Assembly (NCBI RefSeq): GCF_002607855.1
Contig: NZ_AWQQ01000087.1
Coordinates: 39,113 to 44,777, forward strand
Direction of reading: 5' to 3'
DNA: 5,665 bases
Source: Desulforamulus profundi
GTDB lineage: Bacteria > Bacillota_B > Desulfotomaculia > Desulfotomaculales > Desulfotomaculaceae
A program made the position numbers and the translations under genes. Numbering within the stretch: position 1 is the first letter of the stretch; each line of letters opens with the position of its first letter. Of this stretch, positions 2,857-5,090 are shown one piece after another. Under the pieces are notes generated by a model. It was given only the letters and a program-made list of their open reading frames with translations. It was not told the DNA's origin and ran no database searches.

Positions 2857-5090
2857 TTATACATCTATATTAAGCTTTTTAATTATTTCATTTAACGTGC
2901 TTCGCCCTATTCCCAACATCTCGGCAGCCCTCGCCTGTACTCCACCCGCCTGCTTTATAGCTTTTCTTACTAATTTTTTCTTATATTCTTCCACTGCCTG
3001 CTTGTAATTTAAATTGTTTAAATTGGTTTCATCTTGAATACTTTCCCCATTACGGTACTCTTTTCTTATATAAGGAGGCAGGTCTTCATTTTTAATCTCT
3101 GTCCCTTCACAAAGGATTACAGCCCTCTCAATGGCATTTTCAAGTTCTCGCACGTTCCCGGGCCAGTCAGCTGCAGTCAGGCTCGTCATAGCCTCCTTAT
3201 CAATTGAAATTATTTTTTTAGAATGTTTCTTGTAAAACTTATCCAGAAAATATTTAGTAAGGACAGGTATGTCCTCTTTTCTATCCCTCAAAGTAGGCAA
3301 ATTGATGGTCACTACATTTAATCTATAATACAAGTCTTCCCTGAATTTCTTCTTTTCAATAAGTTCCTCAAGGTTCTGGTTAGTTGCAGCAATTATCCTG
3401 ACATCACACTTACGGGGTACAGTTTCCCCTATTCTTATGAATTCGCCCTGTTGGAGTATGCGCAGTAATTTCGCCTGTAAATTCGGACTAAGGTCCCCTA
3501 TTTCATCCAAAAAAAGGTGCCTCCGTTTGCTTCTTCAAATAGTCCTTTTTTAGCGCTCACCGCTCCTGTAAAGGCTCCCCTTGCATGTCCAAAGAGTTCA
3601 CTTTCCAAAAGATTTTCGGGTATCGCTGCACAATTTATGCTTACAAAAGTTTTTTCATTGCGAAGGCTTTTGTGGTGTAAAGCCTGTGCAACCAAATCCT
3701 TTCCGGTTCCACTCTCACCCCTTATCAATACAGTACTGTCTGTAGGTGCCACTTTGTCTATTATTTGATAGACCTGCTGCATGGCAGAAGAATTTCCTAT
3801 CATATTTTCCATTCCAAGGCAATTTTTTAATTGTTTTTTGAGATGTATATTACTGAATTCCAGGCTTGATACCAAAAATGGCAGGCACATTTTGCTCTCT
3901 GCCAAACCCCGAAAGATGGCTATTGCTTTTTTACGGCAGCTGTCATACCCGCAAGCGCCGCAATTTAATTCATCTTCAGGGATAAATTTGCCCAGTTCTG
4001 CAAGAACAGCCCTGATTTGTGCTTCAGTTGGTTCAGGTAATCTTTTGCTGCGATTTCTGAATCCCCGGGTAAGATCAAGTTCGGCAGGAATTTCAACCGG
4101 ACATTCCTCCGCAGCTTGTAAATTTTCCCTGGTATATTTAGTTACCAATTGCTGCCTTTCAAACCTGTTCTCTTCAGACTTTAACATGGGACCGTTGATA
4201 CAGCCTTCGCAAAACAAAATATCAACAAACTTAGCTTGAATTTTACCGCTGGCAAGGCCCTCCAAAACATCAATACAATTCTTCCTTCCCTCAACGGTCA
4301 TTACCTCCCAATTTAGAGGGTCAATTTTAAAACCGGCAGTCCTCAGAAGCCCTCCTGTCACCGGGAATAATCTTCCCAAACGGGAAGGAGGACTGTCCCA
4401 ATCTTCAGGAGCCAACTTACCGGGTTCGATATTTGCCTCCTGTAACATCATGTCCAACTCCGGAAATGTTAATACCCCATCTATAGCTCCCTGTACCATG
4501 GGATCCTGTGCTTCTGCCTTCTTGGCAATACAGGGGCCGATAAATACAACCCTGCATTCTTTGCCGTAACGCAATTTAAGATATCGCCCGAGGGCAATCA
4601 TAGGAGAAATTATGGGAACCAGAAACTGAATTAACTCCGGATAGTATTTTTCCACCATGTTTACTACAGCCGGACAGGGAGTAGCAATATAATGTTTTTT
4701 CTCTTTGGTAGTCAAAACATTTTTTTCGTACTCCCTGGCAACTAAGAGGGCTCCATATGCTACCTCCCAAACTTCGTCAAAACCCAGCTTTTTTATGGCG
4801 CTCACAACCTGGCCCGGGGCAAACCTGTTATACTGAGCTATAAAAGATGGCGCCAGGCACGCAATTGCTTTATCTGATTTTAGCGCATCAATAGTGTTTT
4901 CCCTTCCATTTGCAATCTTTTTGGCGTTTTGCGAACAGACTACCACACAGTGCCCGCAACTGATACACAGTTCGTGCACCACCATGGCCTGTTCGTTCTC
5001 AACCTTTATTGCCTTTGCAGGACAATTTCTAATACATGAATAACATCTTTTGCATAGCCCGTTAATGGTGGTTACTATGTTCATAGGCAC
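2857..5090 (-). CDS. sigma-54-dependent activator with ferredoxin and [FeFe]-hydrogenase-like sensor domain, frameshifted at Walker B
   Basis: Cytoplasmic enhancer-binding activator, 744 residues if one base is restored at the T-run 3509-3515. Order of domains: two [4Fe-4S] ferredoxin motifs (C13, C16, C19, C23 and C42, C45, C48, C52). A hydrogenase-like domain follows at about 75-330, with TPCP (C139), IGPCIAKKAEA (C187) and FCEGCINGP (C294, C297) in the places of the three H-cluster motifs. Next is a four-cysteine Fe-S domain (C377, C380, C385, C402; CGACGYDSC), then a short linker with no PAS domain. The AAA+ domain has Walker A GESGTGKD (458-465), GAFTGA for sigma-54 contact (505-510), Walker B FLDEIGD (527-533, across the break), FRED..YRLN (583-592) and WPGNVREL (643-650). 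A Fis-type helix-turn-helix ends the protein (about 718-740). The first-motif cysteine pair of true hydrogenases (TSCCP) is reduced to one, and the third motif is CxxC, one residue short, so a redox or gas sensor is more likely than an enzyme. The start is taken as GTG at 5090, eight bases after GAGG; ATG at 5084 is possible. Without frame restoration two pieces result: residues up to F527 plus three, and a 217-residue C-terminal part. Confidence 0.88.
3508..3524 (-). other. T7 frameshift or slippage site within the Walker B codons
   Basis: The minus strand has GGAGG, CACC, seven T, then GGATGAAATAG. In the incoming frame this reads T-F-F-W-M-K-stop. A -1 shift, or one extra T, gives T-F-F-L-D-E-I-G-D, the expected Walker B. 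GGAGG (3520-3524) resembles a Shine-Dalgarno and sits nine bases before the TTG at 3510, but these bases also encode the conserved Gly-Gly, so it may be coincidence. Possible explanations are a homopolymer error, a real deletion, or ribosomal or transcriptional slippage. Confidence 0.8.

Follow-up and report, generated by a model that had tools for sequence, protein, structure and literature searches.

We analyzed a 5,665-nt stretch of the Desulforamulus profundi genome (contig NZ_AWQQ01000087.1, positions 39,113 to 44,777; hereafter the window) in which a module related to sensory [FeFe]-hydrogenases is joined to the AAA+ and DNA-binding domains of a sigma-54 activator. Two palindromes and a candidate −24/−12 promoter separate this regulator gene from genes for a formate/nitrite transporter and a formate dehydrogenase. 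On balance, the regulator is probably an H2- or redox-responsive one-component activator of the adjacent transporter–formate dehydrogenase operon. The intact gene would encode a one-component sigma-54 activator with a relative of the sensory [FeFe]-hydrogenases as its input module. The likeliest occupant of its hydrogenase-like domain (H-domain) would be an H-cluster, comprising a diiron subsite and a cubane, held by ligands in CxxC spacing. Binding of H2, or reduction by a low-potential electron pool, would alter the H-domain and the neighboring Cx2Cx4Cx16C cluster, and this change would free the AAA+ ring to remodel sigma-54 polymerase, activation being the presumed direction of the response. 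The protein would bind the two palindromes immediately past the end of the regulator gene, activating the −24/−12 promoter there, and the output in D. profundi would be the transporter and a selenocysteine formate dehydrogenase. H2 sensing has been suggested as the function of sensory [FeFe]-hydrogenases, a role that the literature calls putative while leaving their output open. In the window, the sensor, the activator, its candidate binding sites, and the promoter are neighbors, making H2 sensing testable by reporter.

Sensor module and cluster cysteines

Pfam assigns Fer4_10 (residues 14–55), Fe_hyd_lg_C (77–304; 186.6 bits), and FeS (PF04060; 378–407) to the 533-residue first frame of the regulator, along with PF00158 (Sigma54_activat; 135.7 bits), within which both the Walker A sequence and the GAFTGA loop are present. 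The second frame supplies the rest of PF00158, AAA_lid_14, and HTH_8. The AAA+ and Fis-type domains recognized in a first-pass annotation of this DNA are thus recovered, split over two frames, and, as that annotation also held, no PAS domain appears in the Pfam scan of either frame. Residues are counted here from ATG 5084; the earlier numbering fits GTG 5090 and runs two higher, so that the four H-domain cysteines named there as C139, C187, C294, and C297 are C137, C185, C292, and C295, all kept in the window regulator. Both ferredoxin-type sites were correctly called: their cysteines (C11, C14, C17, C21, C40, C43, C46, and C50) are identical in all 120 relatives listed, except for C11, which is found in 118 and falls in a gap in 2. 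The C-terminal site, previously described as of the CGACGYDSC type, is exactly Cx2Cx4Cx16C (C375, C378, C383, and C400).

The H-domain is homologous by Pfam to the catalytic [FeFe]-hydrogenase large subunit and matches its fold in a predicted structure, in a comparison that covers mainly model residues 1–347 and barely includes the C-terminal cluster domain. The first-pass annotation had staked its reading on this homology and on conservation of the cluster cysteines; the Pfam and fold matches bear out the former, and the 120-relative alignment the latter. The lysine equivalent to K358, presumably the residue holding the diiron subsite, occurs in 120 of the 120 relatives listed and the S232 equivalent in 117. 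P136, G183, and L290 stand at the positions of Cys299, Met353, and Met497, so that all three catalytic-enzyme residues are lost, the proposed absence of the proton-transfer cysteine among them.

Two known regulatory systems offer a comparison. In HoxBC/HupUV–HoxJ–HoxA, a regulatory [NiFe] hydrogenase senses H2 and regulates the NtrC-type protein that activates hydrogenase genes; the window regulator has another metal site and is one protein instead of several. E. coli FhlA is a sigma-54 activator of formate and H2 metabolism, including a selenocysteine formate dehydrogenase, and binds formate through GAF-type domains. The window regulator is likewise a sigma-54 activator beside a selenocysteine formate dehydrogenase, and differs in its input.

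Two N-terminal cubanes and a C-terminal cluster occur in sensory [FeFe]-hydrogenases (Land 2020, PMC8163306; TamHydS 2026, PMC13104023), for which a Cx2Cx4Cx16C motif and altered C299, M353, and M497 (PMC8163306) and conserved H-cluster ligating cysteines (Chongdar 2023, PMC10055695) are reported; a review calls their sensory role putative (PMC8924675). Like group C TmHydS and group D TamHydS, the regulator has two N-terminal [4Fe-4S] sites and a C-terminal Cx2Cx4Cx16C motif. Its H-domain lacks C299 and carries Gly at the M353 position, as in TmHydS, and Leu at the M497 position, as in TamHydS. It differs from these enzymes in its CxxC third motif (L3), in having no PAS domain, the domain that follows the C-terminal cluster in group C, and in its sigma-54 activator output in the same chain. 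HydDB (PMC5037454) distinguishes putative H2 sensors with signaling output as C1 (kinase), C2 (chemotaxis), and C3 (phosphatase), whereas the available main text names no transcription factor-linked class and holds no word beginning “transcription.” PAS-sensory and group D-like hydrogenases lie beside a histidine kinase in Thermoanaerobacter (PMC3608648), and an account of 24 SigL promoters in Sporomusa and betaine clusters includes, in its available part, no sensor of the regulator's kind (PMC12456013).

The first-pass annotation could not say whether the architecture had been described. The domain set is already in print: Nie 2019 (PMC6615313) lists Fer4, Fe_hyd_lg_C, and FeS among regulatory domains of enhancer-binding proteins in Clostridiales, which thus share the regulator's three domains in the regulatory part of a sigma-54 activator. 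The available part of that paper names them among many domains and is silent on what they do, on cysteine motifs, and on their targets and maturation. Beyond this listing, the literature searched, mostly outside subscription journals, held no account of such a regulator. Judged by its sequence, the regulator is new as a combination, namely a sensory-hydrogenase-like module with CxxC spacing and a sigma-54 output.

HydEFG maturases and occupancy of the H-domain

The chances that the regulator itself carries an H-cluster are about even. Ligand spacing and maturase distribution both supply points against it. The L3 motif is CxxC in 120 of the 120 relatives listed, which agrees with the replacement noted in the first-pass annotation, whereas it is CxxxC, one residue longer, in 12 of 12 HydA proteins and, among seven other sensory H-domain proteins examined, in six; L150 supplies the seventh, in which no L3 motif was found. 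An alignment-based genome scan yielded 590 stretches with 573 relatives, from which the best 80 (L001–L080) were taken; this is not a census. HydG (TIGR03955) was sought in the genomes of 50 of these loci, whose record titles name several phyla, and scored above cut-off in 33 and not in the other 17. In the phylum of genome G034, the module was matched at E 1e-60 or better in 154 of 398 genomes; among 58 of these, mostly high-scoring and with a frame of sigma-54 length, HydG was found at E 1e-100 or better in 45 and was missing at that threshold from 13. HydF was above cut-off in 14 and HydE in 12 of 25 genomes tested, with neither in G001, G051, and G052. Four genomes (G140, G146, G062, and G051) have a group A HydA, yet neither HydE nor HydF passes the cut-off there and no HydG reaches E 1e-100.

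These data would suit an apo-type sensor in which the four H-domain cysteines hold a [4Fe-4S] cubane only, with no diiron subsite, and which senses redox state or oxygen; Nar1/IOP1-type relatives, which have no diiron subsite, provide a model. The CxxC spacing throughout the relatives listed and the missing HydG favor it, as do G001, G051, and G052, which are among the HydG-less genomes. We hold this alternative only tentatively and consider it somewhat unlikely, given the conserved K358 and S232 equivalents and the HydEFG of three genomes described below, which speak against it. The absence of HydG as proof against an H-cluster was considered and rejected on the strength of the group A HydA in genomes such as G140, G051, G146, and G062. 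When ten of the 13 HydG-less genomes were searched with PF02906, all ten had a group A-like HydA above 300 bits. The absence of HydEFG is hard to read because genomes without them still carry group A HydA, which may reflect incomplete bins or another maturation route. As a separate observation, G140, G051, G001, G052, G146, and G062 each combine a HydA-like protein above 300 bits (PF02906) with no HydE or HydF above the curated cut-offs and no HydG at the E 1e-100 threshold.

In G098, G136, and G170, HydE, HydF, and HydG are all above cut-off, and a PF02906 search (E up to 10) places the regulator alone above cut-off, the other matches reaching just 12.4 and 10.5 bits. The 2.4-Mb G098 genome has the regulator on a contig of 2,401,520 bases. 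The coordinates place hydG, hydF, and the regulator next to one another in all three genomes, with hydE elsewhere, and in G098 (locus L151) hydF and the regulator overlap by a few bases. The motifs of G098 HydF (P-loop, CxH...HCxxC) and HydG (CX3CX2C, C-terminal CxxC...C) are intact. HydEFG in these three related genomes seem to be kept only for this regulator, and, alike in layout and scores, the three may represent one evolutionary event. Genomes in which HydEFG serve nothing but the regulator offer a clean genetic background, and a CxxC site that binds an H-cluster would show this intensively studied cofactor with ligands in a new arrangement. The first-pass annotation proposed that redox state, H2, or CO is sensed; the neighborhoods and the three genomes with no other H-domain client support H2 or redox state, and no evidence was found for CO. 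The fuller proposition, of an activator with a complete CxxC H-cluster, sigma-54 transcription under H2 control, and HydEFG kept without a hydrogenase in some genomes, appears to us evenly poised between true and false.

Promoter, palindromes, and target genes

The palindromes, as candidate upstream activating sequences (UASs), and the −24/−12 site lie directly upstream of the transporter gene, which is followed by the formate dehydrogenase gene (Table 1). The pattern GTTC-N5..9-GAAC, picked after the sites had been seen, occurs at three sites in the window, the third within the regulator gene; 500 first-order Markov sequences gave a mean of 0.27, and 2 of the 500 reached three. Matches to the sigma-54 consensus with two mismatches are not rare in the window (4 found versus 3.19 expected), so that position, not consensus alone, makes the promoter notable. 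Within 300 nt past the regulator stop, a site with at least 9 of 11 consensus positions was found at 15 of 18 loci, the window included, compared with 256 (3.6%) of 7,200 stretches drawn at random from these loci. At least 10 of 11 positions matched at 12 of the 18 loci versus 76 of the 7,200 stretches. Loci L147, L148, and L149 have no site of at least 9/11 in this interval.

The transporter part at 1543–2403 scores 213.5 bits with PF01226. The dehydrogenase frame contains an in-frame TGA at 889–891 in the context DHCARL-TGA-HAPTVAGL, indicating selenocysteine, and no other stop as far as the window end; we take the CARL-U-HAPTVAGL-like motif to be the signature of selenocysteine formate dehydrogenase. 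The hairpin after the TGA resembles a selenocysteine insertion sequence (SECIS), of which its GGUCU apical loop is presumably the signature. Rfam gave no match above gathering cut-off anywhere in the window.

Twenty stretches were compared for context: the regulator is of the sigma-54 type in 17 and of a kinase type in 3. Fourteen of the 17 came from the 23 best-scoring genomes of the G034 phylum (six left out), with the HydG result already known, and L149, L150, and L151 were chosen for a nearby HydG, making that part of the sample biased. A genome scan with the window protein as single query yielded no relative among 24 pattern matches. Of the relatives with context, L132 in genome G169 is the closest, at 72%; the class of G169 comprised four genomes, and a second draw on the phylum (13 of 369 matching at E 1e-140) added none. 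L132 has a similar palindrome pair in the same place, and in G169 only the UAS sites adjoining the regulator are clustered.

These neighborhoods also count against the transporter and dehydrogenase as general targets. The UAS pair and sigma-54-like site of G169 precede a 68-residue open reading frame (ORF), and no formate/nitrite transporter of the window's kind was found in that genome. A wider UAS search there (TGTTCAAN{5,6}GAAC) gave 5 matches versus 9 for the reversed control, and we therefore claim no wider G169 regulon. The regulator could respond to H2 or redox state and yet act on other targets, either a small SNWEWF protein or distant hydrogenase genes. A 52–70-residue protein of this kind (SNWEWF...QN) is the first gene past the promoter in 12 of the 17 sigma-54-type relatives, and a small SNWEWF ORF lies nearby in two of the three kinase-type loci, L140 and L145. 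We consider this unlikely for the window, in which the palindromes and promoter lead straight into the transporter gene and none of the six frames holds an ORF with the small-protein motif. In addition, targets vary, because the first gene in L150 encodes an H-domain protein bearing a methyl-accepting chemotaxis protein domain (HydB, HydA, and a formate dehydrogenase in two frames come next), and that in L151 a [NiFe] hydrogenase accompanied by HypA, a CobW/HypB/UreG-family GTPase, and HypF. The sigma-54-like site downstream in L151 is TGGTATAAAAATTGCT (9/11). The switching-on of formate metabolism suggested in the first-pass annotation thus finds support in the window's own layout and not in the 12 relatives with another first target.

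The small proteins share the consensus YNCLRSNWEWF ... R(I/V)(D/E)QN and have 39 homologues, one in Neomoorella thermoacetica; they matched nothing in Pfam (five proteins given) or NCBIfam (two given). The kinase-type loci L140, L145, and L146 join this CxxC module to PAS-HisKA-HATPase, PAS being present in all three, and the next gene encodes an NtrC-type response regulator. These systems share the Fer4–H(CxxC)–FeS sensor and sigma-54 output with the window regulator and differ in having sensor and activator on separate proteins. In an unrooted tree with several weak forks and long branches, the sigma-54-type rows do not group together as a single clade, L142–L144 being separate from the rows around the window. 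Moorella and Thermanaeromonas have related regulators (P0023, P0024, and P0031), so that cultured organisms can be searched for the system.

A group A HydA with its motif lies in the same stretch at 11 of the 14 loci drawn from the best-scoring genomes (L139 and L141 were not motif-tested), and the L132 stretch showed no group A HydA. The L1 motif of 11 of the 12 HydA proteins tested (L133–L136, L138, L142–L144, L147, L148, and L150 named) is TSCSP, with Ser at the position of the CpI ligand C300.

Table 1 Features of the window and of related loci
Feature	Position	Strand	Basis or remark
Regulator, first reading frame (533 residues): two Fer4, H-domain, FeS, AAA+ start	3498..5099	minus	
Two [4Fe-4S] ferredoxin-type sites	4935..5060	minus	Fer4_10
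H-domain (Fe_hyd_lg_C): L1 ATPCP, L2 GPCIAKKAE, L3 FCEGCINGP	4188..4871	minus	Pfam, fold match
C-terminal cluster motif Cx2Cx4Cx16C (PF04060)	3879..3968	minus	Pfam and alignment
AAA+ sigma-54 interaction domain, first part (Walker A GESGTGK, GAFTGA)	3510..3803	minus	
A7 run (T7 on coding strand), place of regulator frame change	3509..3515		Frame translations, intact relative P0001
Regulator, second reading frame: remaining AAA+, lid, Fis-type helix-turn-helix (HTH)	2857..3513	minus	Pfam
HTH_8 (Fis-type HTH)	2875-2982	minus	Pfam
Candidate UAS 1, palindrome GTTCGTTTTTTGAAC, GTTC-N7-GAAC	2816..2830		Between regulator and promoter
Candidate UAS 2, palindrome GTTCGTATTTTTGAACA, GTTC-N8-GAAC	2748..2764		Between regulator and promoter
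Candidate sigma-54 promoter TGGCATGAGATTTGCA	2655..2670	minus	10/11 consensus positions
Formate/nitrite transporter, ATG 2499, ribosome-binding-like site, frame change near 2425-2445	1543..2499	minus	PF01226
Formate dehydrogenase-like molybdopterin oxidoreductase, truncated at window edge	1..1305	minus	
SECIS-like hairpin, GGUCU apical loop, about 19 nt after fdhA TGA	840..891	minus	-22.9 kcal/mol
Small SNWEWF proteins, sigma-54-type loci	L132:11622-11825; L134:8303-8488; L142:12037-12246; others	plus; minus; minus	
Small SNWEWF proteins, kinase-type loci	L140:6627-6860; L145:13196-13417	minus; plus	
Three perfect TGTCTAAAAAATAGACA palindromes, UAS-array-like	L151:8552-8645		Between regulator and [NiFe] hydrogenase

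Reading-frame break in the window copy

The first-pass annotation described one polypeptide at 2857–5090. Instead, the window holds two frames (3498–5099 and 3513–2857) that change at the A7 run, and this broken copy is a further point against a working activator in the window. The first frame, with candidate start codons GTG 5099, GTG 5090, and ATG 5084, stops at 3498 after ...EEANGGTFFWMK. The break is a single frame change in the AAA+ domain, before Walker B, and Walker A, GAFTGA, the cysteines, and the HTH are otherwise intact. The relative P0001 (97% identity across the 425 residues queried) is uninterrupted at 744 residues, and a single frame encodes its whole AAA+ domain, the lid, and the DNA-binding HTH, which is not so in the window regulator. 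A second frame change in the same window, in the transporter gene, lies close to a G4 run. Because the neighboring transporter gene also changes frame, indel errors in the contig are probably behind both changes; alternatively, the regulator break may reflect a local pseudogene. A programmed frameshift at the T7 run was rejected as first choice because P0001 reads through in one frame. That the gene is a decayed pseudogene, with the adjacent promoter run by another activator, would fit the break before Walker B and the second frame change but is improbable given the intact P0001, the single change at a homopolymer run amid otherwise intact motifs, and a dehydrogenase frame that is stop-free but for its TGA up to the window end.

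The opposite edge of the window (5463–5665) contains the C-terminal end of a minus-strand frame, followed by a terminator-like hairpin at 5489–5463.
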